From: Maribacter caenipelagi
Lineage (GTDB): Bacteria > Bacteroidota > Bacteroidia > Flavobacteriales > Flavobacteriaceae
Length of the DNA stretch: 64,000 nucleotides
Reading direction: 5' to 3'
Assembly (NCBI RefSeq): GCF_004364175.1
Contig: NZ_SNZW01000015.1
Location: 62,001 to 126,000 of the forward strand
Shown here in pieces: positions 38,716 to 59,580 of the stretch. Within the stretch, counting starts at the first letter, position 1, and each line of letters opens with the position of its first letter. Both the position numbers and the translations under genes were made by a program. Under the pieces are notes generated by a model. That model was not told the DNA's origin and made no database searches. It was given only the letters and a program-made list of their open reading frames with translations.

Positions 38716-40821
38716 TTAGGCTAAATCTTTTAATTTATCGATGGCTTTTGGAATACTACAGTAAAAGCAAGTGCCCTTACCCACAATGCTTTCAGCCCTA
38801 AGGCTCCCTTCATTTTTTTCAACCATTTCTTTACATAACATTAGCCCTAAACCGGTACCTTTCTCGTTATTAGTACCGTAAGTGGTAAATGTTTCTTCCT
38901 TAAAGAATATTTTCTGAAGTGATTCTTTAGTTAAACCCACCCCAGTATCTTGAAACCAAATTTCCCAAAATTCATTTTTATCATTAGCTCCAATCGTAAT
39001 CGTACCATTTTCAGGGGTGAATTTTAAGGCATTACTAAGAATATTTCTAATGACAATTCCAATTTGATTTTTATCTGACCATGTCAAAACCTGATTATCA
39101 ATTTTACTTTCGACAATTATTGATTTTTGACTAAAACTTTTTGAAAGTAACCCAATGTTTTCATCAACTATAGATTTGATATTTGTAACTTCTTGTTTGG
39201 TTATCATACCATCCATTTGAGATTGACCCCAGGAAAGTAAATTATCAAGCGTAAATGAAATATTGTTTATGTTTTTCGACATCGATGGTGCAAAATTCAT
39301 AAAATCAGAAGAACTCATATCACCAGAATTCACCAAATCAAACATAGATTAAATGAGTTTATAGGTCCTTTTAAATCATGGGCAATAATGGAGAATAATG
39401 GAGAATAATCTACTTTTTGTATTGTTAGAATTTCTTAAGAAGGTTTCTTTTTTCTTTAATTGAACAGATTGTTGGGTAAGTTTATTATTTAATCGATTTT
39501 GAACAGTATTATTTCTTCTAAGAATAAATATTATTACCAATGCAGATAAAAGAACAAAAAGAGCACTATAGAAATAATATTTTTGTTGGGCAACTTTCTT
39601 TTCGTTTTCTATAATATATCTTTCTTTTTCTTGGTCAAATTCAAGATTGGATTTTAATATACGTAGTTCCCTTTCGTTCTTTTTGATGTTTAGTGTGTCA
39701 GATAATGTTTTCAACTCTTCTAAATAGGTCAATGCCTTTATAGGTGCATTAACCGTCTTATTGATATCATATAGAATTTGAAGAGTTACATCACGATCCT
39801 CTAGAAGATTCATAGTTTTTGATATTTCTAACGCTTTTAAGGCATAACCTTCAGAAGTTTTAAAATCTTCTAATTTGAAATAAGCTTTAGCAATACCATT
39901 ATATAGCGGTATTTTATATCTGGTTTGATCTATGGACTCATGAATTTTTTCACTTTTCTTAAACCACTGTAATGCTAAACTGGGTTGGTTTTGTTGGTTA
40001 TAAATTATAGCTTTTAATTCATAAGCATACATTTGCCAACTTTCTAAATTAATTTTATCAAAAATGAAAATACTTTCATCAACGTAACTACCAGCGGTTT
40101 CCAAATCATTGATATCAATATAGCTTGCTGCTAAATTAGCCAAGGTCAAACCTTTAATATAATCGTCATTTACTAATTTATTGTTTTCCTGTGCTAGTTT
40201 CAAAAAATAGATACATTGCTGTATTTCCTTTTGACTGCTGTATAAATTGGAAATATTTACATAAAAAGTAGAAAGATAGCTATAAGATTTGGTTTGTTTT
40301 GCTAGCTCAACACCTTCTAAATACTCCCGTAAAGCCTTTGCATATTCTTCATGGTATTCATATTCAATAGCTAGAAGGTTTTTAGCCCTCAATATATGTG
40401 TTATTTCATTTATGGATTTAGCTTTATCAAGAGCCTTTGAGAAATTTTCAATGGCCTTTTCGCGTTGCCCGGTTTCTGAATAATATGACCCCATGCTTAG
40501 ATAGCCTATCGCCTCTCCCTTTGTATAATTTATAGATTTGCTTAGATCAATAGTCTCCTTTGCCAACTTGGATAGACTGTCTAAATCATAGATTGCACTT
40601 TTTCTCGCTAGTTCATATAAAAAATCTATGTAGAGCGTATCCTGTTTATAATTTGGAGTTGCTCTAAAAGCTTTCAGTCTTGTGCTTGTACTATCATTTG
40701 AAACAATTTGGGCATTTGAATTTATCGACGGAAGCCACAAACATAGCATCAGTATAATCTTTAAACCTAAATAATTTATTTCAACTGAACTTTTGCCTAT
40801 TAGCATGAATGGTGTTTTCAT
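38716..40821 (-). pseudogene. TPR-containing sensor histidine kinase, broken at the H-box
   Basis: Two in-frame open parts (39376-40821, 481 residues; 38716-39345, 209 residues) together form one kinase. First part: signal peptide, TPR repeats (about 80-380), a membrane span near 410-432, coiled coil, then the H-box start SRLFSII. Second part: MFDLVNSGDMSSSDF, ATP-binding motifs NILSNALKFTP, DTGVGL and GTGLGLMLCKEM. Between them the frame is lost: the plus strand has aataatggag twice (39384-39403), a 10-bp tandem duplication. Removing one copy restores IIAHDLKGPINSF. A further 1-base loss near 39346 restores the original frame. The ATP-binding part alone would lack the phospho-His, so the gene is probably inactive unless the repeats vary between cells. 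Confidence 0.85.
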
Positions 40822-40834
40822 TTTTTACTTTATA

Positions 40835-40842
40835 CAAAGCTA
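40835..40842 (-). promoter_or_regulatory. -7 box of the broken kinase gene
   Basis: Minus-strand TAGCTTTG, an exact TAnnTTTG match, 13 bp before the ATG at 40821. Confidence 0.4.
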
Positions 40843-40976
40843 TCATTCATTAAAGACTATACTAATTATAGTTGTCCATTAAACCTTTTCTGTAGGTAAA
40901 ATACTACATTTATGTAGTTTAACTAATATTGATTTTAAATTATAATTATAAGATCATTAAATATAATTCTATTATT

Positions 40977-41141
40977 AAAACAGTTTTCAAGAATAGTCGC
41001 ATAACCCATAACAACACACATGGTAGCTAATGCATACCGTCCACCAGACCGAATCAATTTATTAATAGCCACTTGTAAAATTCTTGTACCTGACATACCT
41101 AATGGGTGCCCAAAATTTGGGGCTGTGCCCGCCTGTTTAAT
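40977..41141 (-). pseudogene. Thiolase (acetyl-CoA acetyltransferase) C-terminal remnant
   Basis: The minus strand reads, without a start codon, a segment that contains FGHPLGMSGTRILQVAI, KLIRSGGRYALATMCVVMG and YATILENCF. This matches the C-terminal motifs of thiolases (GGAIALGHPLG, RYALATMCVGVGQG and a closing E). The upstream GGAIA equivalent has decayed to GTAPN, and nothing of the remaining 350 residues is present. It is an old gene fragment in the 900-bp gene-poor zone before the accessory operon. Confidence 0.8.
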
Positions 41142-41189
41142 TATCCTAATATGTTTTATACTTCCCTTTATTTCGTATTTGCTTAAAAA

Positions 41190-41372
41190 TTGAATCTCAT
41201 TTTCTTCTCATTTGGTAGTGCACTACTTATTGTTTTATTGGCATCGGTACGGCAGTTTATAGCTAGTGCAGAATGCCCTAAAACTGATTTAGGAATACCT
41301 ATGTGTTATATATCATTATTGATTTTCACATCACTTATCATCCTTATAAAATTCAACTTAATTACCTTATAA
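41190..41372 (+). other. Possible small membrane ORF or fragment
   Basis: A 60-codon frame starting at TTG (a stop codon lies 6 nt upstream) encodes two hydrophobic segments around AECPKTDLGIPMC. It could be a real small membrane protein or the remains of a longer one; no family is recognised. The rest of 40822-41742 contains the thiolase remnant, the promoter at 41606 and A+T-rich sequence without genes. Confidence 0.3.
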
Positions 41373-41605
41373 ACAATTAATTACGCAACAAAATTCGCCT
41401 ACTCACTTTTTGTGTTTACCGCTTATATAAATAAAGCAAAACTCCATAATAATACCACATATTAAAATGTATTTTTCTTCAACCCCAGTTTATACTTTAT
41501 TAAGCTCATATTCATATCCTAATTAGGTAGAATACTTCTTATTGGCTATTGGTATCCTGTTTTACACTCTCCCTAAAACATAACCTAAATACTACGTTAC
41601 ACAAA

Positions 41606-41634
41606 CTATTTTAAAATAGAATCAATTATATTTG
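41606..41634 (+). promoter_or_regulatory. Palindromic operator candidate and -7 box of the accessory operon
   Basis: CTATTTTAAAATAG (41606-41619) is a perfect 14-bp palindrome. Seven bases later the box TATATTTG (41627-41634) matches TAnnTTTG exactly. A leader of about 100 nt follows, including a small hairpin AACGA/TCGTT (41680-41695). A repressor or activator site overlapping the -33 region is inferred. Confidence 0.5.
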
Positions 41635-41742
41635 AGTACACCTCATGTAGTTGTAATTGTCTTTTTAATTGAAATATAAAACGACTCATATCGTTCAATT
41701 AATAAGTGATTACTAATCTTTATAAATTCAAGTCTATAATAT

Positions 41743-43566
41743 ATGAAAGACACCAAAGTAAGATGGCTCCAAGACTTAAGACGTTTTGTTACACTTAAAA
41801 GCCAATTTATACTTTCAGGCAATACCAAAGATTTACAACTGATTAAAAATGACTTTAACGGTTTTAGCTGGCACAGGCTAGAGAATGCGATTGATATAGA
41901 GCTTAAAAGTTTAGGTTATACAGAGGTCATTTATTATAATCCATTAGAGGGATTTGAAATTCCTTTTTTTACCGGAAATGCGGAAGAAAAGAAAGTATTA
42001 TTTGATCAACTCAATATTCCTCTGGGTAGTCCGTCTAGCTACAATAATCTAGAGACTTTTAACAGCGTTCTCCAATCTATAGTCAACCATAAGGACAACC
42101 CTATTGCATTAATTGTAGACTTTGCATCGCAACTGCTTATGAATCCAGAAAATTTGGTCAAAGCAGAACATGATACTTTTAGCCTTGCAAATGTATTATC
42201 GCAAACGACAAACACAAGACCTCACGGCACTCCACCTTCGCCATTTTATAATACAGTAATTTGGATTGTAGACAAAGAAGGAGATCTCCCTGATTGGATG
42301 GTGGTAAACAATCCAAAAATACGTCACATCCCTATAGAAAAACCTGACCATATTGTTCGTAGAAGACTTGTAGATACACTTATTCAAAGCTTTAGTAAAA
42401 AAGAAGAAGTAGAAGTAGATAAAATTGTTACCGATTTTGTAAATGAAACAGAAGGTCTATTACTTTTAGATCTTGTTGCAATTATAGAGCTTACAAGAGC
42501 AGAGTCTATACCTATTACCCATATTGCCGATGCCGTACGTAGATACAAAGTTGGAGTTACGGAAGATCCTTGGATAAATATTGACCGAGAGAAAATTGTA
42601 CAGGGAGAAACCTTTATTAAAACTCGTGTAAAAGGGCAAGATCATTCTGTACAACATATTATGGATATTGTTAAAAGAGCTATTACAGGTGTAGGCTCTT
42701 CTAAACGTAATAGTCGCCCTAGAGGTGTAGTATTTTTAGCAGGACCAACAGGTGTTGGTAAAACAGAACTAGCAAAAACACTTACTAGCTTGCTTTTTGG
42801 TGATGAGAATGCATACATACGTTTTGATATGTCTGAGTTTACCGCTGAACACTCTGATCAGCGACTTTTAGGAGCACCTCCAGGATATATTGGTTATAAT
42901 GTTGGTGGCGAGCTTACCAATGCGGTACGTGAAAAACCTTTTAGTGTACTTCTCTTTGATGAAATTGAAAAAGCGCATCCGCGTATATTAGATAAGTTTC
43001 TTCAGATCCTTGATGATGGGGTTTTAACCAGCGGACGCGGTGATAAAGTATATTTTTCTGAAACCCTTATCATTTTCACCTCTAACTTAGGTATTTACAA
43101 GAAAACTGCAACTGGTGGCCGTGTAGCCCATACTTCTTATGAAGATCCTTTTGAAGTCATTCAAGAAAAAATAAAATACGAAATAGAGAATTACTTTAAG
43201 TTTGAGCTAAACCGTCCAGAACTACTAAATCGAATTGGTGATAATATCATTGTTTTTGACTACATAAGACTAGACGTGGGAGAACTCATTTTTAATATGA
43301 TGTTAGAGAATCATTTAAAGGCTATTCAAAAGCAACTCGATATTACTTTAGACCTAAACCATACCGTAAAAAATAGCCTTAAAGCATTAGCCTTAAAAGA
43401 CCTTAGTAATGGTGGGCGAGGTATTCGTAATAAAATTGAGTATCACTTTATTACGCCTATTTCTAGATCCCTTTTCAGTCTAGACCCATTACCTAAAGAT
43501 GTTTTAAAAGCAACAACTATTACCGTAGATAATACTGGTACAACAATCACGTTACAAAAACAATAG
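41743..43566 (+). CDS. Clp-type AAA+ ATPase of the four-gene accessory operon
   Basis: A 607-residue protein. The C-terminal half is a ClpA/B D2-type AAA+ module: Walker A GPTGVGKT (334-341), pore-loop-like GAPPGYIGY, Walker B LLFDEIEKAHP (Asp406-Glu407), sensor 1 FTSNLG, arginine region FELNRPELLNRIG and sensor 2 GGRGIRNKIE, then the C-terminal D2 small domain. The N-terminal 290 residues look like a second, degenerate AAA domain: LIVDFASQLL and TVIWIVDKEGDLP resemble strands of an ATPase core, but no P-loop is seen. An unfoldase or remodelling ATPase is likely. No ClpP-binding loop was recognised. First gene, 5 bp before the radical SAM gene. Confidence 0.88.
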   Translation: MKDTKVRWLQDLRRFVTLKSQFILSGNTKDLQLIKNDFNGFSWHRLENAIDIELKSLGYTEVIYYNPLEGFEIPFFTGNAEEKKVLFDQLNIPLGSPSSYNNLETFNSVLQSIVNHKDNPIALIVDFASQLLMNPENLVKAEHDTFSLANVLSQTTNTRPHGTPPSPFYNTVIWIVDKEGDLPDWMVVNNPKIRHIPIEKPDHIVRRRLVDTLIQSFSKKEEVEVDKIVTDFVNETEGLLLLDLVAIIELTRAESIPITHIADAVRRYKVGVTEDPWINIDREKIVQGETFIKTRVKGQDHSVQHIMDIVKRAITGVGSSKRNSRPRGVVFLAGPTGVGKTELAKTLTSLLFGDENAYIRFDMSEFTAEHSDQRLLGAPPGYIGYNVGGELTNAVREKPFSVLLFDEIEKAHPRILDKFLQILDDGVLTSGRGDKVYFSETLIIFTSNLGIYKKTATGGRVAHTSYEDPFEVIQEKIKYEIENYFKFELNRPELLNRIGDNIIVFDYIRLDVGELIFNMMLENHLKAIQKQLDITLDLNHTVKNSLKALALKDLSNGGRGIRNKIEYHFITPISRSLFSLDPLPKDVLKATTITVDNTGTTITLQKQ

Positions 43567-43571
43567 TCGTT

Positions 43572-44201
43572 ATGGATATTCATATATCCCGTGTACATTT
43601 TCCCGTAACAACTTTAGGACCTGGAAAACGCATAGGTATTTGGTTACAAGGATGCACTATTCATTGTAAAGGCTGTATTTCAATGGATACTTGGCAATTT
43701 AATATTAACAAGGTACCCCTTAACGACCTCAAACAAGTTTTAGAAGTATGGCTACCACAATGTGATGGAATTACCATCTCTGGCGGAGAACCTTTTGATC
43801 AAGAAAATGCCCTATTTGAACTTCTTGAGTTTTTAAATTCCTATAAAACGAACATCTTAGTGTATAGCGGATTTTCTTTTGAAACCTTAAAGGAAAAAGA
43901 ACTTGTGCAAAACGGATTCATAGATGTTTTGATTTCAGAACCCTATAATCATACAGAAACTCAGACAAAACGACTTCTAGGTAGTGATAATCAACAAGTC
44001 CATTTTTTAACCCCGCTAGGCAAAAGAGAATTTGCCACCTATCTAGAACAACCTTTAGAAAAAGAATTAGACATTCATATTACCGAAGAAACCGTATGGT
44101 TGGCTGGAATACCAATCAATGGAATGAAAGAAATTACGCAAGCGGGGAAAGATAATAATGTAGACCTGTCGCACAGTCAAGCAGTGACTAAAACTAAATA
44201 A
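43572..44201 (+). CDS. NrdG-like radical SAM protein of the accessory operon
   Basis: A 209-residue radical S-adenosylmethionine enzyme. It has the 4Fe-4S cluster motif C28-x3-C32-x2-C35 (GCTIHCKGC) and the SAM-binding GGEP in ITISGGEPFDQ. The size and the WLQGC start match glycyl-radical activating enzymes such as NrdG/PflA, but no glycyl-radical partner with a C-terminal RVxGY-type motif is encoded nearby. It may activate another protein of the operon or modify a nucleotide or protein. Flanking gaps are 5 and 3 bp, so translational coupling is likely. Confidence 0.88.
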   Translation: MDIHISRVHFPVTTLGPGKRIGIWLQGCTIHCKGCISMDTWQFNINKVPLNDLKQVLEVWLPQCDGITISGGEPFDQENALFELLEFLNSYKTNILVYSGFSFETLKEKELVQNGFIDVLISEPYNHTETQTKRLLGSDNQQVHFLTPLGKREFATYLEQPLEKELDIHITEETVWLAGIPINGMKEITQAGKDNNVDLSHSQAVTKTK

Positions 44202-44204
44202 TTT

Positions 44205-47200
44205 ATGGAATTTGTAAGACTTTGTCCAGCTTGTCATAGCGAACGTCCGGTTCAAGAAATGTACTGTCAAAATACCGTTGATGATACAGGCTGCAGCTGG
44301 TTGCTTATGAACGTTACCCAAACACCAAAGGGCGGTAAAATAGAAATAGAAGAGTCACCGATAGTCAAAAATGCACGCCACTGTACAAATGGACATGAGG
44401 TGCAGGCAGGTGATTTTATGTGTATGGAATGTGGTGCTGACATTGAAGTACTACCAACACCAGAAAAAATTGCTAAAGCGCAGCAAATAGACGAATATCA
44501 GATTATAAAATCTGTTAAGGCAGAACGCACTACAAAAGAATGTTTTCTAGTTAAAGATGCAGCCGACAAAGAATATTTTCTAACCTTATATTTCGAGAAT
44601 AGTGAGCCAGACAAGAGTATTTACAAGGTATTGGAGAAAATGGATACCGATCATATTGCAACGCTCATAAAAACAGGCGATTATAACGGTCGTTTTTTTG
44701 AAGTCTCGGAACTAATCTCTGATGGATCATTAGATACACTGGGATACTTACCTATAGACAAGATTGAAAAGTTGGTAAATGAGGTAGGTAGAGCTATACA
44801 TAAACTTTCTGAAGCAGGTATCCGCCACCGCGATATATGTCCTAAAAATCTACTTTTAAGAGATTCTGCAAGTTTTGATGTTGTTATTATTGACTATAGC
44901 TCGGCACGTCTGTCCGATTATGATCTTGATACCGACACTCCTATAGAGCTCACAAGATATACTGCTCCGGAAGCGATTATTGGTGGAATTAGTCCCGCTT
45001 CAGATTGGTGGAGTTTAGGTATGATTGTTCTAGATCACATTACAAAAGGAACTTTCTTTGAAAAAATAAACGACAAAGCTTTTATGATTCATTTGATCAC
45101 TAGAGGTGTTGACATTCCATCTTCTATTGATGCACGCATATTACTTTTACTTAAGGGGCTTTTAACCCGAGATCCTTTAAAACGCTGGAATTGGGAGCAG
45201 GTTGATAAATGGCTTAAAAAAGAAGAAGTTGAGGTTCCTGTTGAACAAATTAGCACTTCAACAAAAAAAGAAAAGAAAATTACGCTAGGCTCAGCAGATT
45301 ACACTAATGTAGCATTCTTTGCCCTGGCCGCAGCCGAAGAAGAACATTGGGAAGAAGGAGTCTCCCTATTTAATTCTGGATCTCTTGCCAGCTGGGTAAC
45401 TGAAGTATTTGGTAATGACAAAAAAGCCGCTGCTGTTCGCAATCTTCGTAACAAAGAGGATATTCCGCTAGAATGGTGCTATCCCCTAGCTTTAATGGTT
45501 TTAAACGAGGCATTACCATTAACTTGGCGCGGACAAATTATAATCCCTGCATGGCTTATGGGAAACACAAAGGAAGCAATAAAACTTGTAGAAGGCCATG
45601 TGCCAGATTATTTGGCAAGTTTACAGCGAGAAAAGTGGCTCATACAGCTCAAAGAAAGAAAAGCAAACATTGCCAGAAAAGCAAAGAACCTTGATATTCA
45701 ATTAGATAACGACAAATTTTTAATTTACAGCCTAAGTTCTTCAAGAGTAAAACTTAAATCTGAATTAGATTTCTTGCGCCGTCTCTATCCAGATGCACAT
45801 AACCCTGGTCTATCTGATGTTATGAGTAATCTTCGTTTAACAGAAGAAGATATGATACTGGTTTTAAGTGCCAGGCGCAACCAGTTTATTACACTTGAAG
45901 AGCTTTTAAGCAAAACGGAAAAACTTGCAAAAAAAAATGGTCTAGAACCCAATCTCCCTTTTTATAAAGATAGCTTGGTAAAGTATAGATTAGAAATATT
46001 TGAAATGCTTAATAACCATTTAGAAGGTTTTTCTAGATGTAATAATGCAGCGCTTGATCGCTGGGCAGATCGTTTTAGAATTGAAAAAAGATTGCCCATA
46101 ATACCATCTGTTCTCTGCCTTTCTATTCCAAAAAATAAATGGGTAGCACCACCTAAACACGAGTATGGTTCTAGCTTATTACGACACTTTGAGAAAAAGG
46201 TCGTTTACGCTTCTTCTAGAGGTCCACTTGTAAGATTGATTATATCTAAACACTCGTCTCGTATTGATTTAAGCGAACTAGGCACAAGCTTAAAATCATC
46301 TGAAAAACTTGTACACAGCATTCTTAAAAGATCTACTGGTACCGAAAATGTTGATCCATTAGCCTTCAATACAAAAGCCTTATTGGCACAGCGAATACGG
46401 CGTATGCTTCTTAAAGCTGATAATTTTAAGCGAGATACAGGTTTAGATTCCCTATTTATGGGATTCCCTTTTTTGATCGCTCAGCACAAGATGACGCATA
46501 GGCCCCGTATTATGCCTATTCTGCTATGGCCAGTTAATCTTGATTTTAGTTCACGAGGGGCTACAACTCTTAAATTTAGTTTTGATTATGCACATGGTGA
46601 AATAAGGCTTAATCCGGCACTTGTAAATACATTAGACCCGGATAATTACAAGAAATTAGAAAAAATAACTCGCGAGATTTTAGGAAGGCAATCACTTCAC
46701 GTTTCTGAAGTTATTGATGCTTTTAGTGCCTGTTTTCCTGCCCATACAAATGAACTTACCGCCCACCCTAGCGTTAATTTTAAAAGAGATGAAATTGGGA
46801 CAGAGCTTCACGCTTCGGCCGTATTTTTCAATGCGAATTTCACGGGGCAAGCAATTAGTGAAGACTTACGTCTTTTACAAAAATTGCCACATTCAGGCTC
46901 GTCAATGGAGCCCATTTTAAAAATTTCTGAACCTGAAATAAATTCAACGATAGAAATCAGTCCTGAAAATGGTCGTTATACCACAATGGCTATTGATCCT
47001 TCTCAAGATAATGCGGTGCTAAAAAGTAGATCAAGCCCTGGCATTGTAATAGAAGGTCCTCCTGGAACTGGAAAAAGCCAAACAATTGTCAATATCATTT
47101 CTGATTGCATTGGGCGAAACGAAAAGGTTTTGGTAATTTCTCAAAAGAGAGCGGCAATACAGGTTATATTAAAAAGATTACAAGCTGTAGGCTTAGAAAA

Positions 47201-50200
47201 GAGAGCGTTGCTAATTACAGATTTATCTAGAGATAGACAACCCATTATACAAGGTATACGAGAACAGGTAGCGCATTATTATTCTCAACCAAATAACCAA
47301 CGCACGTTAGACAATCTGGTGCAGAAACGTGAGGATCTCGGAAAAAAAATAGATCGCATAGAAACTAATCTTGATGTGCTATCGCATCAAATTCACCTTG
47401 TAGACGATACCTCTGGATTAAGCTACCGAAATATACTTTCGGAATTAATTGATATTACATCAAAGGAGTATGTTGAAGTTCCTGAACTAAGATTGCTTTT
47501 TGAAAATAGTACTAAAAACAAGCTTAATATTCTTAGCGAAGAAATAAGTAATTTAATAACAGATTGGGTACCTTCTAAGTATGAAGGCAATCATCTTAAA
47601 AACTTACAAATCACTTCTTTTGACCATACTACCGAAACAGCGTTAAATAAAGATTTAAACGAATTTTACGAAACAGAAAAAGAACGTGTACAATTTATTA
47701 AAGAGACTTCAGGCAAACTGGATACGCCTAACGCCGCCCATTATAATCAATATTTAGCTATCCATAAAGAGACACTGCTCAATGTGTCAAAATCGCAGGC
47801 AACCAAAAATCAACTCTGGTTAAATTTACTTTACGATAAATTTGATAATCAATCTATTGGGGATGATATTCATGACAACCTAGTTAAACTATTAGAGCAA
47901 GTAGAACAACTTATCTCTAACTATCAAGACAATAGATTTGCAGTTTATTTTGATACATTAGATGATGAGAAAGTATTAAAATTGAATAAGGCTTGCGCTA
48001 CATACTTGGGCACATCTAGTTTTAAAAAAATTAATCCCTTCTACTGGATTAATAAATCTCAACTTAAAAAAGTAGTTACTGAGCATCATTTACAATTAAA
48101 TGAAAAGGTCGTGAGTGAACTACACTCAGCCGTACTCCTTGAGAATAATTTTAGAGCCTATCGAAAAGAGTATGCTCAACATCTTTTAAAATTGAAGACT
48201 CGGTATGTGATGGTCAAAGAGCCAAGGCGACTAGCGGTCGATATTAAGTCGACTATACGAGAGTTAGCCCAAGCAATCTCACTAGTAAGTGTATTACGAA
48301 GCTGTCCTGCAAAAGATGAAGCAAGAACAATACTAGAAACCGGTGATGAGAATGCATATAAAGATTTCTCAATAGCGTTAGAGAGTGCAAGTAGGCGTTT
48401 TCAAAACAGACAACAGTCTCTAAGCAAATTAAACGTACTTGAAAAATGGCTAACCCCACATTCGGTCACTACATTTACTAATGCTGTAGAACAAAACAAC
48501 ACCGATCTAGATACAGTCGCATCCATCATATCTGATATGGTAAATTTTGTCGCATATCAAAAATTTAGAATACGCTTTCAAAATAGTACTGCACAAGATG
48601 AACTCATTGAAATCTTCGCTATCCTTAGAAAATATGAGCATGAAATTTCTAATTTTCCGATTGAAAATTGGTCAGATTTAATAAGTATTTCGCTACATCG
48701 CGAAGGGTTACTGGCTTGGAAACAACGTATTGAGAAATCGTATCCCTCAATGCTAATGGCAGAAAGGGAAGTACTTCAACAAATAAGTGATTTAGAAGAA
48801 AATCTAAATTCGATGAAAACCCTCAATCGAAATATTTTAGCGCTGAACTATAATTTCGAAAATATAGAATCGCAAACAGCATGGAACAGCATCACAAGAT
48901 TAAGAGGTAAGAATTACAAAAAACTTCGTGAATTTATTTCTGAAGGAGAACCCTTGGGTTTACTTGAATTGAGACCTGTTTGGCTTATGAACCCTGAGGT
49001 AGTTTCTCAAGCATTGCCCCTACAATCTGGAATGTTTGACGTTATTATTTTTGATGAGGCGTCACAAATGTTAGTGGATCACGCAATACCTTCATTATAT
49101 AGAGGAAAACGGGTAATCATAAGTGGAGATGAAAAACAAATGCCGCCTACAGGATTTTTTACAAAAAAGCTGGAAGAAGATGATGATGACACAGATCAAA
49201 CAGAGCTTGATGAAGATCATTCTGAAGAAGAGCTGGTAAACTATGAAGACGCGTGGAACAAGAAAGAAGTTAAGGATAGTCCAGACCTTCTTTCATTGGC
49301 AAAAACAGTCTTACCTACCACTACACTACAGATTCATTATAGATCAAAATACAAGGCGTTAATCAACTACTCAAATTATGCATTTTATGACGGTATGTTA
49401 CATATACCTGCGTATCACCCTAAAGAAGAAATTTCAGTTGTAAAACCTATAGAAGTACTTCGCGTAAATGGAATATATGACGAACAAACCAATACCGCCG
49501 AAGCGGATACTTTAATAGCTTACCTCGCTGAACATTGGGCACTTCCTGAGCACGAGAGACTAAGTACGGGTATTGTAACCTTCAATAAAAAGCAAGCAGA
49601 ACTAATAGAAGACACCATTGAACAACATGCCGCACAAGATGATACTTTTGGTCGTGCCCTAACCATTGCGCGTAATAAAGAGCAAGATGGAGAAGATATG
49701 GGTTTCTTTGTTAAAAATGTAGAAAATGTTCAAGGTGATGAACGAGATATGATTTTATTCAGTACCACTTTTGGTATTAACCCATTAGGATCCTTCCGCC
49801 GTAATTTTGGAGCATTAGGACATCGCGGTGGAGAACGTCGTCTGAATGTTGCTATTACGAGAGCAAGAAACAAAGTAGTTATTGCGACCTCTATGCCTAC
49901 GCAAGCGATTTCCGATATCTTATCTACTGGAAGGCTTGCTTCTAAACCTAGGGATTATATACAGACCTATCTCAATTATGCTGAAATACACTCAAACAAT
50001 CAGATAGCAATGGCAACTAATACTTTACGCCTTTTATCCACTAGTGATCACCAACAAATAGCTAAGATTAGAAATGATGGATTTAAAAATATTGTTAAAG
50101 CCTATGTTGAAAGTTTGGGATATGAGACTGTAGAAGACAGTGACAACTCCGTTTTCTATATGGATCTAGCAATTAAAGATAAGCAGCAAGGTCAATTTAT

Positions 50201-50396
50201 ACTAGGTATAGAATGTGATGCACCTTATAATAATCTTTTAAAACAAGCTCGTTATAGAGAACTATGGCGCCCTAAAGTATTAAAGCGTTCTATTCCACAT
50301 ATACACAGAACCACATCTTACCAGTGGCTTCAGAACACCCATGAGGAGCAATTAAAATTAAAAAACGCCATTGAGATGGCACTTATTCAAGACTAA
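44205..50396 (+). CDS. Giant zinc-ribbon / kinase-like / SF1 helicase / nuclease protein
   Basis: A 2063-residue multidomain protein. Two N-terminal Cys clusters (C7-x2-C10...C21...C30; HCTNGH and CMEC near 58-76) look like zinc ribbons. Residues about 95-345 are protein-kinase-like: HRDICPKN (His208-Asn215), D230-YS in place of DFG, APE at 254-256, but no Gly-rich loop and no clear beta-3 Lys. From about 930 a COG1112/Upf1-type SF1 helicase: Walker A GPPGTGKS (951-958), a roughly 650-residue helical insert, Walker B DEASQ (1617-1620), VQGDERDMI and RRLNVAITRAR. The last 80 residues resemble the Vsr-like PD-(D/E)XK nuclease (Asp1987, IECD 2002-2005). The kinase-helicase pair recalls Mokosh anti-phage proteins, but partners differ. 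Its stop overlaps the next start by 1 bp. Confidence 0.85.
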   Translation: MEFVRLCPACHSERPVQEMYCQNTVDDTGCSWLLMNVTQTPKGGKIEIEESPIVKNARHCTNGHEVQAGDFMCMECGADIEVLPTPEKIAKAQQIDEYQIIKSVKAERTTKECFLVKDAADKEYFLTLYFENSEPDKSIYKVLEKMDTDHIATLIKTGDYNGRFFEVSELISDGSLDTLGYLPIDKIEKLVNEVGRAIHKLSEAGIRHRDICPKNLLLRDSASFDVVIIDYSSARLSDYDLDTDTPIELTRYTAPEAIIGGISPASDWWSLGMIVLDHITKGTFFEKINDKAFMIHLITRGVDIPSSIDARILLLLKGLLTRDPLKRWNWEQVDKWLKKEEVEVPVEQISTSTKKEKKITLGSADYTNVAFFALAAAEEEHWEEGVSLFNSGSLASWVTEVFGNDKKAAAVRNLRNKEDIPLEWCYPLALMVLNEALPLTWRGQIIIPAWLMGNTKEAIKLVEGHVPDYLASLQREKWLIQLKERKANIARKAKNLDIQLDNDKFLIYSLSSSRVKLKSELDFLRRLYPDAHNPGLSDVMSNLRLTEEDMILVLSARRNQFITLEELLSKTEKLAKKNGLEPNLPFYKDSLVKYRLEIFEMLNNHLEGFSRCNNAALDRWADRFRIEKRLPIIPSVLCLSIPKNKWVAPPKHEYGSSLLRHFEKKVVYASSRGPLVRLIISKHSSRIDLSELGTSLKSSEKLVHSILKRSTGTENVDPLAFNTKALLAQRIRRMLLKADNFKRDTGLDSLFMGFPFLIAQHKMTHRPRIMPILLWPVNLDFSSRGATTLKFSFDYAHGEIRLNPALVNTLDPDNYKKLEKITREILGRQSLHVSEVIDAFSACFPAHTNELTAHPSVNFKRDEIGTELHASAVFFNANFTGQAISEDLRLLQKLPHSGSSMEPILKISEPEINSTIEISPENGRYTTMAIDPSQDNAVLKSRSSPGIVIEGPPGTGKSQTIVNIISDCIGRNEKVLVISQKRAAIQVILKRLQAVGLEKRALLITDLSRDRQPIIQGIREQVAHYYSQPNNQRTLDNLVQKREDLGKKIDRIETNLDVLSHQIHLVDDTSGLSYRNILSELIDITSKEYVEVPELRLLFENSTKNKLNILSEEISNLITDWVPSKYEGNHLKNLQITSFDHTTETALNKDLNEFYETEKERVQFIKETSGKLDTPNAAHYNQYLAIHKETLLNVSKSQATKNQLWLNLLYDKFDNQSIGDDIHDNLVKLLEQVEQLISNYQDNRFAVYFDTLDDEKVLKLNKACATYLGTSSFKKINPFYWINKSQLKKVVTEHHLQLNEKVVSELHSAVLLENNFRAYRKEYAQHLLKLKTRYVMVKEPRRLAVDIKSTIRELAQAISLVSVLRSCPAKDEARTILETGDENAYKDFSIALESASRRFQNRQQSLSKLNVLEKWLTPHSVTTFTNAVEQNNTDLDTVASIISDMVNFVAYQKFRIRFQNSTAQDELIEIFAILRKYEHEISNFPIENWSDLISISLHREGLLAWKQRIEKSYPSMLMAEREVLQQISDLEENLNSMKTLNRNILALNYNFENIESQTAWNSITRLRGKNYKKLREFISEGEPLGLLELRPVWLMNPEVVSQALPLQSGMFDVIIFDEASQMLVDHAIPSLYRGKRVIISGDEKQMPPTGFFTKKLEEDDDDTDQTELDEDHSEEELVNYEDAWNKKEVKDSPDLLSLAKTVLPTTTLQIHYRSKYKALINYSNYAFYDGMLHIPAYHPKEEISVVKPIEVLRVNGIYDEQTNTAEADTLIAYLAEHWALPEHERLSTGIVTFNKKQAELIEDTIEQHAAQDDTFGRALTIARNKEQDGEDMGFFVKNVENVQGDERDMILFSTTFGINPLGSFRRNFGALGHRGGERRLNVAITRARNKVVIATSMPTQAISDILSTGRLASKPRDYIQTYLNYAEIHSNNQIAMATNTLRLLSTSDHQQIAKIRNDGFKNIVKAYVESLGYETVEDSDNSVFYMDLAIKDKQQGQFILGIECDAPYNNLLKQARYRELWRPKVLKRSIPHIHRTTSYQWLQNTHEEQLKLKNAIEMALIQD

Positions 50397-51736
50397 TGAG
50401 CGGACCTAAAGTAGTGCGTATTGTTACACCACAAGAACGTCAAATAATTAAAGATAGATGGCTCTCACAACTCAAACATGCCTTAAAGCGAACAGAGGAC
50501 TATGCCAAAAAAAATAACCTTCTAGATAACGATTTAGAGAAAGGGCTTTCTGATACCCATGAGCATTATGCCAATTTATCTATTAATGATTACTTAAAAA
50601 TAGAACGCGAGGTTCCACAACAAATTGAATTCTTAAACGTAGAACTTAAGAAGTTAAAGAAAAAAGTTGCCGACAAACGAACATCAGATTGGGAAAGGTT
50701 TAGGAATCTTAAGAGTACCCACAATGAATTGAAAGCCTTATCATTTGAAAAAAATATTGCTTTTGACGCCTTTAATGCTCCGCAAAGTATCACAAATAAA
50801 AACTTAGAAACATATCAGGCTCAAATAGATAATTTATACGAACTACTGCAAAAATCAATTTCTAAAACTGACGAATTATCTGAAGAACAACTAGCGATGC
50901 AAGAGCGGTTATCTCAAGGAGATAGTATGTTAACTGTCACCGCTTGGAAAGTAAAGTTAGAAGGAACTAGATCACGTTTAAAAAAACTAGAGAATACGTT
51001 AAAAGAAATGCACGTCCACGAAATGTCACAAGAAAAAATACAGACATTGATAAATCGTTGTGGTCAGCTAGATTCAAGACAAACAAACTATGATCTTCAA
51101 CTAGATTCTCTTATTATTGATGCTGCAGACTTTACTAAAAATGAACTAGAGCTACGAGAGACTCGTGAAGATTTAAGTAATAACTTACTCCTTATAGAAA
51201 CACTAGGTGAAGACTTTAAATTTGTAGCTCAGTGGAAAGAGAAACTTCAAAATTCGACACTTGAAGATTTAATAGAAACAGCTGCAAAAGCACTTAAATT
51301 TTACGAGACAACTTCGGAGAACCGTATTGTCGAAGCCAGAGGAAAAGCTATCAAATCTGCACTAGAGAAAGCTGGGTACACCATAAACGATTCAATGCAA
51401 ACTGCTTGGGTAGAAAATGGACGCCTAGTCGTGAAGAAAGCTACCCATTCGCTTTACGGCATTGAAATAATGAGTCCCACCAACTTAAGTCGTATTCAAG
51501 CGCGTGTAGTAGCCGACGAAAACCGTACTAATGAAAGATCGCCAAGTCTTGACAAAAACGAAGAAGAAATTTGGTGCGATAATATTGATGAAATAAAAAC
51601 TTTATTCGCTAATGAAAATCTTGAAATCATCATTGACAAAATGGAAGAACCTGGAGCAATACCACTTAAAGAAGTTCCCCTAAATAGTGGCTATGCTGCT
51701 CTTAACATAAACATTGAGAAGAAACGACGGAGTTAA
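50396..51736 (+). CDS. Coiled-coil protein, last gene of the accessory operon
   Basis: A 446-residue, mostly helical protein. It starts MSGPKVVRIVTPQERQII, has long heptad regions (about 60-130 and 140-300, e.g. EFLNVELKKLKKKVADK), and ends with a beta-rich C-terminal third (about 320-446: AGYTINDSMQTAWVENGRLVVKKATHSLYGIEIM). No enzymatic motif is recognised. The ATG overlaps the stop of the giant gene (TAATG), so it is made in stoichiometric coupling with it and is likely a structural or sensor subunit of the same complex. Confidence 0.75.
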   Translation: MSGPKVVRIVTPQERQIIKDRWLSQLKHALKRTEDYAKKNNLLDNDLEKGLSDTHEHYANLSINDYLKIEREVPQQIEFLNVELKKLKKKVADKRTSDWERFRNLKSTHNELKALSFEKNIAFDAFNAPQSITNKNLETYQAQIDNLYELLQKSISKTDELSEEQLAMQERLSQGDSMLTVTAWKVKLEGTRSRLKKLENTLKEMHVHEMSQEKIQTLINRCGQLDSRQTNYDLQLDSLIIDAADFTKNELELRETREDLSNNLLLIETLGEDFKFVAQWKEKLQNSTLEDLIETAAKALKFYETTSENRIVEARGKAIKSALEKAGYTINDSMQTAWVENGRLVVKKATHSLYGIEIMSPTNLSRIQARVVADENRTNERSPSLDKNEEEIWCDNIDEIKTLFANENLEIIIDKMEEPGAIPLKEVPLNSGYAALNINIEKKRRS

Positions 51737-51825
51737 ACTAGAAATGATAGGTAATCATAATTTGAATTTCTGAGATGTGACGATTTAGATAATCCTAATG
51801 AACCCTCATTGCAAATGACAAGATG

Positions 51826-51852
51826 AAGGCCATCGCCTTTTCATTTTTTGTT
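51826..51852 (+). terminator. Probable terminator of the accessory operon
   Basis: AAGGC-CATC-GCCTT (51826-51839) followed by TTTCATTTTTTG, about 90 bp past the coiled-coil gene stop. The stem is short, so this is a moderate call. Confidence 0.5.
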
Positions 51853-51997
51853 GCCAATCGTTTACAAAAACAAACTGTTGACCGATTTGTTGACGGTGTT
51901 TTAAATGAACTTAAAGTAAATTGACTTACTTTCTGATGGCGTAAAGATATAATTTGAGTAATTCAAAATAATAAAAGAGCATATTTTTTTATAAAAT

Positions 51998-54256
51998 CTA
52001 TCCAACAATTTCCCGACTCTTGTTAAAAGGTTGCTGATAATGCCTTTGCCCCGTGGCTTTGTAAAGTGCATTGGCCACCGCTCCAAAAACAGGGGGAAAC
52101 GGAGGTTCTCCCATACCCGTTGGGTCGATTTCATTCTGCACAAAATGTACGTCGATTTCTTTCGGTGCCTCTTTCATACGGATCATTTGGTATTGGTGGA
52201 AATTGTTTTTCTGTGGCACCCCACCCTCAAAGGTCAATTCCCCATAAAAGGCATTGCCTACACCATCGGTAATGGCTCCCTCGGCCATGTTTGTTGCTGC
52301 ATCAGGATTTACCACCACTCCACAATCAATGGCACAAACTACTTTTTCAACTACAGGTTTACCGTTCTCCATCTTTAAATCCAGTACATGCGCCGCATAG
52401 GAGTTATGGCAAAAATAGGCCGACACTCCTCGATGTTTCGTTGCATCATTTTCTTTCCAAGCCGATTTTTCACGAACCAATTCCAAGACTCCGGCGTACC
52501 TATCAGCATCATAATCATTCCGTTCGCCTACAGGATTTTCCTTGGCGCGTTTTAGCAGGTCCAAGCGAAATTGAATGGCGTCCTTGCCCGTAGTTTCAGC
52601 AACTTCATCCAAGAACGCTTGTTCGGCACCGGCCATAAAATTAGATCGTGGAGCTCTAAAGGCTCCTATGGAAATGTTGGAATCAATGGTCCACTCTTCT
52701 GCCATATAATTATCAATGGCCCCTGCCGGAAAACGATTGGCGAACAATGGACTCTCCGGCACTCCTCCAGCCTTTACATGTAATGCCGTTAAATTATTGT
52801 TTTCATCAAAAGCCGCGCGATAGGTTGCGTGATAAGTTGGGCGATAAATACCATTGGTCATATCGTCTTCACGGCTATATACTAACTTGATAGGTGCATT
52901 GACTTTTTGTGAAATCAGGGCCGCTTCCACTACAAAGTGGGCATAGGCCTTGCGTCCAAAACCACCGCCCATCCTTGGAAGGTCCATCTCAATATTCTCT
53001 TTCGGTATTCCCAGACTACTAGCAATGGTAGGGATGATCAAAGGCGGAATCTGTATTGGTGCTGCAATTTTCGCCTTATCGCCTGCTACATGGGCAAAAG
53101 CATTCAAGGGCTCCATGTTATTATGAGCAAGAAAAGGCGCCGAGTAACTTCTTTCCAAAATCGTTGTTGCATTTTCGAAGGCTACTTCTGGATTTCCATC
53201 TTTTCGGACAACTTTTCCCGGTTTTGCAGCAAGTGCTTCCATTTGTGATTTATGGGTCGTGGTAGATTCCAGTCCTGCGGGTATGTTAATCGTTTGTTTT
53301 CCACCAAACCCAGCGATTGTTTCCGAATAGGCGGTAATGGGTTGCCATTCAACTTTTAATTTCTTTTTAGCTTGCATCACCTCCCAAGTAGAGTTGCCCA
53401 CTATCGCAACCAATTCAGGAAAAGCGTTGGTGTCGAAACCGCCTTTTTCATATCCGTCCTTAAAACTCTTGATCGTAACCACATCCTTGATTCCAGGCAT
53501 GGCTTTGGCTGCTTCACCATCCACTGATTTTAAGGTCAAACCAAAAGCTGGTGGATGTTCGATCATGGCGATCAACATTCCTTCCTCTTGAATATCCATG
53601 CCAAATAGAGGCCTACCGGTTACAATGCTTTTTGCATCTACATTTTTTTGCGAACGGCTGATCAGTTTAAAATCCTTTACCTCTTTTAGTTGTACTTCTT
53701 CGGGTACGGTAAGTGTTGCTGCAACTGAAGCCATTTCTCCGTAACCGGCCGATTTTTTGGTGGCTGCATGTTGTAATACTCCTGCTTCTGCGGTAATCTC
53801 TTCCTTGGGTACCTGCCAGGTTTCTGCCGCCGCCGCTATCAACATCTGCCTTGCGGTTGCTCCGGCCATTCTAAGCGGCTCCCATCGGGCACTTATTCCC
53901 CTACTGCCCCCCGTAAATTGAAATCCATATTTGTCTGCATGATAGGGCGCCTGTTCAACCAGTACATTTTTCCAATCTACATCTAACTCTTCTGCTACCA
54001 ACATGGGCATAGATGTCCTGATATTCTGACCGAATTCCGGATTGGGCGTATAAATGGTTACAACCCCGTTATCACCTATTTTCAGATACGAATTCATTTC
54101 GAACCATTCTTTGGGCATTTCCCTGACAACCATCTCTTTTGCCTGCTCAGGTTTGCAGGAGTTTAAAATACTAAAGCCAAGTACCAATCCGCCACTTGCC
54201 AAACTTGTATTCTTGATAAAGGCCCTACGTCCCATATGCGTCTTTAGCTTTGTCAT
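51998..54256 (-). CDS. Molybdenum hydroxylase large subunit (isoquinoline 1-oxidoreductase-like)
   Basis: A 752-residue xanthine dehydrogenase-family molybdopterin-binding subunit. The N-terminus RRAFIKNTSLASGGLVLG is a twin-Arg signal, so the enzyme is exported folded. Two fused Ald_Xan_dh_C2-like parts are visible, with cofactor motifs GGFGRKAYAHF and GAFRAPRSN and the catalytic Glu in TGMGEPPFPP. Such enzymes oxidise aldehydes or N-heterocycles with water as oxygen donor; the natural substrate is unknown. It pairs with the [2Fe-2S] subunit gene 16 bp upstream and is the last gene of the nine-gene run. No cytochrome c subunit is adjacent. Confidence 0.92.
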   Translation of the reverse strand: MTKLKTHMGRRAFIKNTSLASGGLVLGFSILNSCKPEQAKEMVVREMPKEWFEMNSYLKIGDNGVVTIYTPNPEFGQNIRTSMPMLVAEELDVDWKNVLVEQAPYHADKYGFQFTGGSRGISARWEPLRMAGATARQMLIAAAAETWQVPKEEITAEAGVLQHAATKKSAGYGEMASVAATLTVPEEVQLKEVKDFKLISRSQKNVDAKSIVTGRPLFGMDIQEEGMLIAMIEHPPAFGLTLKSVDGEAAKAMPGIKDVVTIKSFKDGYEKGGFDTNAFPELVAIVGNSTWEVMQAKKKLKVEWQPITAYSETIAGFGGKQTINIPAGLESTTTHKSQMEALAAKPGKVVRKDGNPEVAFENATTILERSYSAPFLAHNNMEPLNAFAHVAGDKAKIAAPIQIPPLIIPTIASSLGIPKENIEMDLPRMGGGFGRKAYAHFVVEAALISQKVNAPIKLVYSREDDMTNGIYRPTYHATYRAAFDENNNLTALHVKAGGVPESPLFANRFPAGAIDNYMAEEWTIDSNISIGAFRAPRSNFMAGAEQAFLDEVAETTGKDAIQFRLDLLKRAKENPVGERNDYDADRYAGVLELVREKSAWKENDATKHRGVSAYFCHNSYAAHVLDLKMENGKPVVEKVVCAIDCGVVVNPDAATNMAEGAITDGVGNAFYGELTFEGGVPQKNNFHQYQMIRMKEAPKEIDVHFVQNEIDPTGMGEPPFPPVFGAVANALYKATGQRHYQQPFNKSREIVG

Positions 54257-54272
54257 CTCCTAATTTTTTTGA

Positions 54273-54737
54273 TTAAACGTTTTCCGAACTAGCGGCTGTT
54301 TTTATTGCTTTCTTGATACGAGTGTATGTACCACACCTACAGATATTCCCGTTCATAGCGCTTTCAATTTCTTCGTCCGACGGATTGGGATTCCTTTTCA
54401 ACAAGGCCGAGGCCGACATTATCTGCCCTGCCTGGCAATATCCGCATTGGGGTACATCGATTTCCAGCCAAGCTTTTTGTACAGGATGATCACCATGCTC
54501 CGACAATCCTTCAATGGTCGTGATTTTTTGCTCCCCAACAGCCGAAACAGGTAATTGGCAAGAACGTACCGCATTGTCACCTAAATGCACCGTACAGGCA
54601 CCACATTGAGCGATACCGCAACCATATTTAGTTCCTACCAATTTAAAGTGGTCCCTTAGTACCCAAAGCATTGGTGTATTTGAATCAACATCTACGCTGT
54701 GTTCCGATCCGTTGATGTTTAAGTTGAATATTGCCAT
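54273..54737 (-). CDS. [2Fe-2S] ferredoxin-type subunit of the molybdenum hydroxylase
   Basis: A 154-residue electron-transfer subunit. The plant-type cluster motif is [14 protein letters not shown] with a later Cys. The second cluster motif is [10 protein letters not shown] ... ICRCGTY, as in all XDH small subunits. No signal peptide is seen, so it is presumably carried out with the Tat-tagged large subunit. It sits 16 bp before the large-subunit gene. Confidence 0.94.
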
Positions 54738-54833
54738 TTTTAAAAAATTTACTTAAAAATAAAGATTATATATTGGGTGTTGCTTACGAAATTCAAACAG
54801 TTTTAACCTACTTTGTCAAAATCCTAATTGTTT

Positions 54834-55436
54834 TTAGTTTTTGATAGTCAGTGGTTTAAGCTTTTCAAGCCATTCCACAAGTAATTCCTTCACTTCTACT
54901 TTACGGTTCCCTTTTATGGCCAAGTAAATTCCATCTCTCTCAATACCCCCGGTTACCGAAAACCCTTCTAAAATGTTGCAATCGGAGCAAAGGCTTTCCA
55001 CCGTTCGAAAGGTACTGCCAATACCGTACCCAGCATTGGTGTTAAAAGGAATGACCGTTTTATCCTTAAGGTCGTGCCGGGTCAAAAAGCTTTTAATTGG
55101 TGGAGGCAGTTGCATTCCCCATGTGGGGAAGCCTAAAAAAACGGTATCATACTTGTCCATATTTATCTGTGTTTTTAGGGGCGGAAGAAACCCGGTACGA
55201 TTTTCTTCTGCCACTTGTTCCACAATCGACTTGTAGTTTTGCGGATAAGGATTTTTTAATTCCAGTGCCACCAGATCACCGCCCACATTTTCATGGATCA
55301 TTTCGGCCACAACCTTAGTATTGTTTGTTCTTGATAAATAGACAATCAATATGTTGTCCGCTTTATTCTCGTACCCTTGGGCACTACACCATCCGGATAC
55401 CAAGAAAATAATAAATAGTAAACGAGATATTATCAT
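54834..55436 (-). CDS. Exported flavodoxin-like protein
   Basis: A 200-residue protein with a signal peptide (about 1-19, ending WCSAQ) followed by a flavodoxin domain: FMN phosphate-binding loop LSRTNNTKVVAEMI, the strand FLGFPTWGMQLPPP, and FNTNAGYGIGSTF. Flavodoxins carry one- or two-electron transfers; an exported form is unusual but occurs in Bacteroidetes and may work with the neighbouring aldo/keto reductase and hydroxylase. Its ATG overlaps the AraC-type gene stop (ATGA). Confidence 0.88.
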   Translation of the reverse strand: MIISRLLFIIFLVSGWCSAQGYENKADNILIVYLSRTNNTKVVAEMIHENVGGDLVALELKNPYPQNYKSIVEQVAEENRTGFLPPLKTQINMDKYDTVFLGFPTWGMQLPPPIKSFLTRHDLKDKTVIPFNTNAGYGIGSTFRTVESLCSDCNILEGFSVTGGIERDGIYLAIKGNRKVEVKELLVEWLEKLKPLTIKN

Positions 55437-55816: not shown

Positions 55817-55858
55817 ATTTTCAATATCGATAACTACAGTTTTTTTTGACGTATTCTT

Positions 55859-56989
<1,131 letters not shown>

Positions 56990-57014
56990 TTACTTTACTA
57001 ATTAGTACTCATTT

Positions 57015-57923: not shown

Positions 57924-57930
57924 AACTGGT

Positions 57931-59550: not shown

Positions 59551-59580
59551 TTGAGTGTTTATTAAGTTGCGTTGTTCAAG

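Follow-up and report, generated by a model that had tools for sequence, protein, structure and literature searches.

What might a Clp-type ATPase, a radical SAM (S-adenosylmethionine) protein, a very large helicase-nuclease and a protein of no known family be doing together in one tightly packed operon? The question is raised by a locus of Maribacter caenipelagi, in a window of 64,000 nucleotides of contig NZ_SNZW01000015.1 (positions 62,001 to 126,000 of the forward strand; window coordinates are used below). Here four open reading frames (ORFs) follow one another on the + strand, separated by 5 bases, by 3 bases and then overlapping by 1 base; the ORF listing of the window reproduced exactly the coordinates and junctions of an initial annotation, which had proposed a new defence or quality-control system. 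Gene 1 (41743..43566, 607 residues) encodes an AAA+ unfoldase/remodeller, as assigned by ORF, domain and alignment searches. Gene 2 (43572..44201, 209 residues) encodes a small radical SAM protein of the NrdG / pyruvate formate-lyase activase type. Gene 3 (44205..50396, 2063 residues) encodes the candidate effector, with zinc-ribbon, pseudokinase, DUF4011, superfamily 1 (SF1) helicase and MTES_1575 nuclease parts, and gene 4 (50396..51736, 446 residues) a helix-rich, putatively coiled-coil protein without known family, the least conserved of the four. Reading from sequence, we consider it somewhat more probable than the opposite that the operon is a horizontally moving counter-invader (anti-phage or anti-plasmid) system, in which genes 1, 2 and 4 would form a control core.

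The four genes form one unit with a patchy distribution

The combination is found well beyond this strain. The order gene 1-2-3-4 holds in all 16 loci where the match to gene 3 covered 80% or more of this gene, eight of them from Bacteroidota (the window, G017, G019, G026, G033, G054, a Dokdonia metagenome-assembled genome, L022, and Joostella, L024) and eight from proteobacterial plasmid records (seven from Rhizobium and one from Caballeronia, with gene 3 at ~38% identity). Twelve loci were read directly; for the other four the order was inferred from where genes 1, 3 and 4 matched in tblastn, which leaves 659-666 bases at the place of gene 2. Since the same order recurs in every one of these loci, the tight packing is not due to chance, and the earlier view of the four genes as one functional unit holds. 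Identity across phyla is 52-54% for gene 1, 43-45% for gene 2, 38% for gene 3 and 22-24% for gene 4. In L027 gene 3 is split into two frames, and in three more plasmid records the tblastn match to gene 3 comes in 2-3 pieces; partial cassettes from Microvirga (L028), Roseomonas (L072) and the Rhizobium plasmid pSK02 (L073) were left out of the count.

A stretch upstream of gene 1 (41581..41742, +) travels with the cassette, as seen by blastn and by alignment of upstream regions. Position 41581 is where similarity begins in L064, a relative in which the cassette directly follows an MgtC-like gene, and in the remnant of L066 (blastn). This stretch contains TATATTTG (41627..41634, +), which matches the Bacteroidetes -7 promoter element (consensus TAnnTTTG) and is present in 8/9 upstream regions compared, six of them from the genus Maribacter. 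The single promoter suggested for the operon is thus plausible, as a putative element shared between these regions.

Within the genus Maribacter the operon is present in 5 of 36 genomes, each time downstream of an MgtC-like gene; a conserved position in most related genomes, which would have spoken for a housekeeping role, was not found. An exact empty site is apparent when G018 is compared with G026: the two sequences part after the MgtC-like gene and align again from a GH5 cellulase-type gene onwards, and between these points G018 has 110 bases and G026 has 14,031, the cassette included. Remnants are seen as well. G003 retains 348 bases with the promoter region and stop-ridden first codons of gene 1, the remnants in Microvirga and Roseomonas adjoin transposase genes, and pSK02 carries a fragment of gene 4. 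In the wider sample of Bacteroidota, gene 4 was matched in 2 of 395 genomes (the window's own and one weak partial match) and a broad gene-4 profile in 4 of 390 (three of them weak partial matches). The core AAA+ protein at E <= 1e-105 was found in the window's own genome only (1/390), judged on the best three candidates per genome, so that misses are possible.

Phage sequences gave little. Gene 3 had one distant tblastn match in 50,697 phage records and gene 1 none at E 1e-60, and among viral contigs gene 4 had no match, gene 1 had one and gene 2 matched distant radical SAM proteins only (21 loci, 27-40% identity). The viral contig L032 (IMGVR_UViG_3300031825_000373), with genes for a single-subunit RNA polymerase and a phage single-stranded DNA-binding protein, ends in a gene 1 relative of 56% identity, which may be phage-borne or belong to the host flank of a prophage.

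Gene 3 combines a pseudokinase with a helicase and a nuclease

Gene 3 encodes, in order, a zinc-ribbon-like region, a kinase fold, a 370-residue region, DUF4011, an SF1 helicase (AAA_11/AAA_12) and an MTES_1575 domain, and its motifs were read from an alignment of eight homologues from Flavobacteriaceae, Rhizobium and Caballeronia. The cysteine-rich, zinc-ribbon-like region (44205..44480, +) has no Pfam match and shows CPxC and CxxGH...CxxC in 8/8 homologues. Residues 96-350 (44490..45254, +) match Pfam Pkinase with 78.7 bits, which agrees with the kinase-like domain of the initial annotation as far as the fold is concerned, but not with an active kinase: the VAIK lysine is replaced by Thr and the HRDxK lysine is lost in 8/8, and the DFG aspartate is missing in 3/8, with the HRD aspartate retained in 8/8. 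Judged by these residues the domain is a pseudokinase, although it may have some unorthodox activity. The region of unknown fold that follows (residues 351-720; 45255..46364, +) lacks a Pfam match and is conserved, with 32-35% identity to proteobacterial homologues over residues 351-700.

The SF1 helicase (residues 925-1910; 46977..49934, +) retains motifs I, II, III, V and VI (GPPGTGKSQT, DEASQM, SGDEKQMPP, NVENVQGDERD and LNVA(I/V)TRAR) in 8/8 homologues. It contains a fast-evolving insert at residues 1060-1560 that is 24-25% identical to the proteobacterial homologues, as compared to 57-59% for the C-terminal part of the helicase. Among solved helicases SMUBP-2 is the nearest, with a match at residues 908-994. 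The restriction-endonuclease-like MTES_1575 domain at the end of the protein (residues 1960-2056; 50082..50372, +; PF18741, 54.6 bits, cut-off 38.2) keeps the nuclease motif GIECD in 8/8. As the kinase lysines are lost and both the helicase motifs and GIECD are conserved, gene 3 has two catalytic parts, the helicase and the nuclease.

A DUF4011-type SF1 helicase with a C-terminal nuclease is shared with the anti-phage proteins ProA (NCBIfam NF058533) and Hhe (NCBIfam NF042953), to which gene 3 scores below the cut-offs: 482.4 bits to ProA (cut-off 1500; best stretch residues 925-2060; 488.9 bits for a Rhizobium homologue) and 304.9 bits to Hhe (cut-off 2000). Zinc ribbons and a pseudokinase set gene 3 apart from these two, as do its three companion genes. 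A search of the literature for the name ProA was without result. The best match of gene 3 in PADLOC is the candidate PDC-S37 (498.6 bits over residues 724-2059), which covers only the C-terminal two thirds of the protein.

Mokosh systems (MkoA/MkoB, MkoC) also have a kinase fold and a COG1112-type helicase in one protein, and are defined by a kinase-helicase similar to MkoA along its full length, with a PLD-family nuclease as partner or domain. The match of gene 3 to MkoA is 152.9 bits in three stretches (best residues 1609-1902) vs. 498.6 bits to PDC-S37, and a PLD nuclease was not matched at E 0.1 in any of the four operon proteins. These profile scores suggest that gene 3 lies outside MkoA, and the distinction from Mokosh drawn in the initial annotation is supported; unlike Mokosh, the present operon has a dead kinase, a different nuclease and radical SAM, AAA+ and helix-rich partners. 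TerY-P triads and CoCoNuT systems (PMC11090510) likewise bring a zinc ribbon with a kinase fold, a helicase and a nuclease together in one conflict operon. The four operon proteins gave no match to vWA or PP2C (both at E 0.1) or to a McrB-type GTPase, and this, with the degenerate kinase motifs, places the operon outside TerY-P.

A radical SAM protein is paired with a ClpB-like ATPase

Gene 2 matches Pfam Fer4_12 with 88.5 bits, and its closest solved structure is 3c8f (E 2.7e-17). The protein has the radical SAM fold and the CxxxCxxC motif of glycyl-radical activases; the three cysteines for the 4Fe-4S cluster (C28, C32 and C35; 43653..43676, +) are invariant in 11/11 homologues. The earlier description as NrdG-like radical SAM protein is supported by Fer4_12, with the qualification that the NrdG profile itself is matched with 81.4 bits, under its equivalog cut-off of 126.1. 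Matches to PADLOC profiles were no better than E 0.01, and with E 0.01 and 13.4 bits to the prokaryotic viperin (pVip) profile gene 2 falls outside that family.

Gene 1 has a degenerate, AAA-like N-terminal half without Walker A, followed by a ClpB-D2-like AAA+ domain (Pfam AAA_2, 161.9 bits, residues 326-498; 42718..43236, +), in line with the Clp-type ATPase that had been annotated. Walker A (GPTGxGKTE), Walker B (DEIEKAH) and the aromatic pore loop G(Y/F)(V/I)G are present in 13/13 aligned homologues, and the structure match is 4lj4 (ClpB D2). The ClpB profile gives 252.8 bits over residues 258-603 vs. a cut-off of 1232.1, and together with the N-terminal half lacking Walker A this shows that gene 1 is not a full two-ring ClpB with an active D1. 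In PADLOC, matches of gene 1 were limited to its AAA+ domain.

Gene 4 carries a near-invariant N-terminal peptide

Profile searches with gene 4 gave no family above its cut-off, and PADLOC gave no match. Its composition is helix-friendly, with 4.7% Pro+Gly and 44% EKRQDN. Comparison of conservation and of codons brought out a near-invariant N-terminal peptide, MSGPKVVRIVT (50396..50428, +), in which 9/11 positions are invariant in 10 homologues as compared to 30/435 elsewhere in gene 4 (Fisher P 6e-9). Synonymous variation across 11 sequences is seen at every codon from 2 to 11; selection therefore acts on the peptide rather than on the DNA. The peptide is a natural candidate for modification by the radical SAM protein or for the grip of the AAA+ protein. 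Gene 4 was also considered as a glycyl-radical protein, as its C-terminal ...NSGYAAL... resembles the glycyl-radical motif RVSGYAV of pyruvate formate-lyase, but the SGY is unconserved and the idea was rejected as a general feature.

The AAA+ and radical SAM genes recur with other effectors

Proteins related to gene 1 along 80% or more of the sequence, its unusual N-terminal half included, are encoded in 20 plasmid records. In each of the 11 records that were read, the same cluster also encodes a radical SAM protein like that of gene 2 and a helix-rich protein of 367-452 residues. The present operon, with its pseudokinase-helicase-nuclease effector, is type A; its kinase is dead and it has neither an FHA protein nor a phosphatase. 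Type B, from Photobacterium, Leisingera, Acinetobacter, Moellerella and Polaromonas, has the order SF1 helicase, PIN nuclease, helix-rich protein, AAA+ and radical SAM, and its helicase scores 310.5 bits to MkoA. Type C, from Aristaeella, consists of a ProA-like DUF4011 helicase-nuclease, a Ser/Thr kinase, a helix-rich protein with an MSGPK start, a zinc ribbon/FHA protein, radical SAM, AAA+, an annotated Ser/Thr phosphatase, DUF6273 and a kinase. The DUF4011 helicase of type C scores 1187 bits to the anti-phage ProA (cut-off 1500), and the kinase beside it keeps the Lys, HKDLKPAN and DFG; in the comparison with TerY-P and CoCoNuT it is this relative in which kinases occur together with an FHA protein and an annotated phosphatase. 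Type D, from Geminocystis, has radical SAM, two DO-GTPase-type genes, a helix-rich protein with an MSGSPK start, a toxin-antitoxin pair and AAA+. The stretch between its radical SAM and helix-rich genes (L039:2987-7306) contains two DO-GTPase-family matches and a third, unmatched GTPase-like gene.

Pairwise distances over 11 loci were correlated between AAA+ and radical SAM (r = 0.94, Mantel P 0.0001) and between AAA+ and the helix-rich protein (r = 0.91). Such agreement is expected if the genes travel together, although much of the correlation reflects the operon types. Profile comparison with hhalign joined the helix-rich proteins of types B and D (PIN-type vs. Geminocystis, E 4.5e-6). Since AAA+ and radical SAM, with a helix-rich partner, recur with different effectors in three other operon types, they likely represent a reusable control core. 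A megablast search for the PIN-type operon in E. coli genomes gave no match. The PIN-type relative in Acinetobacter sp. (L036) lies on a plasmid, pNDM1_010055, whose name suggests a carbapenemase gene.

A constant core with exchangeable effectors is likewise reported for MoxR-vWA, FtsH-ternary and DO-GTPase conflict systems (PMC7159879), and the two DO-GTPase-type genes of the Geminocystis relative recall the last of these. The closest precedent in idea comes from the FtsH ternary systems, for which modification of a peptide effector by a radical SAM protein is proposed in that source. The core found here differs in its ClpB-D2-type ATPase and in the lack of vWA, and it is not described in the passages of PMC7159879 that were consulted. 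In PMC10250203, DUF4011 / radical SAM genes are noted at the flanks of the P. aeruginosa defence hotspot cDHS1. Full-text literature searches gave no description of the four-gene combination among the matches listed, although one may exist elsewhere; to this extent the statement that the combination has no described function stands.

Flanks and neighbouring genes

The initial annotation had placed the operon in decayed, gene-poor DNA, which is true of the upstream side only. There, 40822-41742 has no ORF of at least 80 residues, and 41100-41364 is the remnant of a small gene (125-127 residues) that is open beside the same place in L061, L062, L063 and L068. Further out, a gene that by eye is TPR/histidine-kinase-like (38716-40821, -) is divided into two ORFs, 38716-39345 and 39376-40821, and is probably a pseudogene. 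Downstream of the cassette, by contrast, stands an open molybdopterin-oxidoreductase-type gene. The right flank (51998-60000), with genes of this type, has 39-46% G+C vs. 29-35% on the left, and the first gene there shares 97-99% identity with copies in five other Maribacter genomes, one of them partial.

Just 3' of the cassette lies a 92-base element (51782-51873). As a single copy in the genome it is not a dispersed repeat, which had been considered, but a conserved flank. One copy is found in L062 and two adjacent copies beside a tRNA-Pro gene in L065, which lacks the cassette. The 64-kb window has no tRNA gene, and with the element of L065 adjoining tRNA-Pro this indicates that the right flank of the window is rearranged.

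Defence-type genes are found near several copies of the cassette. When neighbours were scanned with PADLOC, 8/10 proteins matched a profile at E 1e-5, some weakly; the ten had been picked by eye, so the figure is not a measure of enrichment. The matches include an AriA/OLD-like ATPase in Joostella (AriA, 190 bits), a NADAR protein in the Dokdonia genome (PDC-M42C, 139 bits), and in Rhizobium a TcmP-like protein (PDC-M41A, 254 bits), a weak SIR2 match (30 bits) and a type II methyltransferase (302 bits). Microvirga has a weak SIR2 match, Caballeronia a weak HATPase match (67 bits) and Maribacter a WYL regulator (86 bits). In Dokdonia the NADAR gene is part of a group with nucleoside-deoxyribosyltransferase-like, NAMPT-like and PRPP-synthetase-like genes beside the cassette (L022:11933-16567), an NAD-salvage-type cluster that resembles NAD-rebuilding clusters.

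Two further observations concern the surroundings. A WYL-domain regulator gene lies near the cassette in two Maribacter genomes (L061:15964-18552 and L064:1055-2077), with an RtcB RNA-ligase gene after it in L061. On pSK02, the gene 4 fragment is near annotated multiubiquitin, ThiF and HEPN genes (L073:3221-12262).

Discussion

A counter-invader role is favoured by the patchy distribution, by the empty site and the remnants, by the defence-type genes near several copies and by an effector related to the anti-phage families ProA, Hhe and MkoA. The defence role proposed by the initial annotation gains in weight as a putative function. We infer that such a system could act in the following way, in which the modified protein, the target of the AAA+ protein, the order of action and the trigger are all suppositions. 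Gene 3 would be the effector, with the zinc ribbons and the pseudokinase as its receptor, docking/sensing or regulatory head; its SF1 helicase would load on foreign DNA or RNA and the MTES_1575 nuclease would cut. Genes 1, 2 and 4 would be the control core that gates this helicase-nuclease. Gene 4 may tether or cap the effector and present, after loss of the Met, the fixed N-terminal peptide SGPKVVRIVT. Gene 2 would mark one of the proteins of the complex by radical chemistry, with the near-invariant peptide as first candidate, and gene 1 might then grip the marked protein via its aromatic pore loop and pull it apart, whereby the effector would be set free or reset on infection. A wider proposal, which we regard as possible but put forward tentatively, is that the AAA+/radical SAM/helix-rich trio is a general immunity control core joined to at least four effector sets, and that radical SAM marking, possibly of a fixed N-terminal peptide, licenses the unfoldase to arm or disarm the effector. 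To our knowledge, this would be the first immune switch in which radical post-translational modification is coupled to unfolding.

A number of observations weigh against a mobile defence system with such a core. The eight plasmid records are not independent, as five are closely related Rhizobium plasmids with gene 4 92-100% identical, and the Maribacter copies share one chromosomal site and are therefore vertically inherited there. By eye, the flanks in the genus Maribacter are mostly ordinary, and no defence gene was seen around the G054 and Roseomonas copies. A cognate glycyl-radical enzyme is absent among the Pfam matches of the four operon proteins, and the annotated phosphatase of Aristaeella has no Pfam match at E 1e-5. 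Other points concern gene 4. A home-made heptad-periodicity test on the window's protein gave z = 0.3, so the coiled coil of the initial annotation is unsupported and we use the term helix-rich, with coiled coil as putative only; z >= 3 was reached in 3/12 gene-4-like proteins (L024, L038 and L039), and the test is crude (controls: gene 1, z = 1.2; gene 2, z = -1.3). With hhalign, gene 4 of type A gave no significant match to the partners of types B, C and D (E 0.02-0.24). Because the profiles gave no link and the heptad test no support for a coiled coil in the window's gene 4, the third core partner rests on position, size and composition, and in two types on the MSG(S)PK start. The PIN-type partners lack MSGPK, and the peptide can therefore not be a universal radical SAM substrate.

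Among other explanations, a nucleic-acid repair or maintenance module (e.g. rescue of stalled forks or RNA-DNA hybrids) survives best, although we consider it improbable. Such a module would be gained and lost by plasmids and chromosomes, with the AAA+ and radical SAM proteins servicing the helicase complex. In other organisms, helicases of the superfamily of gene 3 have roles in repair and in RNA metabolism; SMUBP-2 is the nearest solved helicase, and several copies reside on large rhizobial plasmids. The patchiness, the empty site and the remnants are less easily explained in this way, and neither are a nuclease domain common to anti-phage families and the rapid divergence of gene 4 and the helicase insert.

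Less probable still is that gene 2 acts on gene 4 to leave there a stored glycyl radical, or a residue that is cleaved or cross-linked; gene 4 would then itself be the toxic agent or signal, and the helicase-nuclease secondary. The invariant Ser-Gly-Pro at the start of gene 4, with synonymous changes that show selection on the peptide, would suit this idea, as would the glycyl-radical activases (NrdG and pyruvate formate-lyase activating enzyme) being the nearest relatives of gene 2. This is a resemblance only, however, and the C-terminal SGY of the window's gene 4 is unconserved and the PIN-type partners are without SGP.

We give slightly less credit to a stress or protein quality-control system, in which a ClpB-like remodeller and a radical SAM redox or iron sensor control the helicase. 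The D2 of gene 1 is closest to ClpB (252.8 bits; 4lj4) and 4Fe-4S clusters are able to sense redox state, but the D1 half lacks Walker A, the operon is rare in Maribacter, unlike a conserved stress gene, and the nuclease is left unexplained. Finally, a divergent type I Mokosh system with extra genes is very improbable: in spite of the kinase fold and COG1112-type helicase in one protein, the MkoA match of gene 3 and the higher one of the PIN-type helicase, gene 3 scores higher to PDC-S37 and ProA, no PLD nuclease was matched, the kinase is a pseudokinase and three extra genes are kept in 16/16 loci.

If the counter-invader reading with its control core is true, radical SAM chemistry and protein unfolding would join the known switches of bacterial immune nucleases, and a single control core would account for operons that now carry no annotation beyond 'AAA family ATPase' and '4Fe-4S single cluster domain-containing protein'. 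The operon also offers a pairing that can be tested directly, in which an orphan radical SAM enzyme of the activase type stands next to a protein whose near-invariant peptide is under selection, and profiles of full-length gene 1 together with gene 2 can be used to find more such systems.

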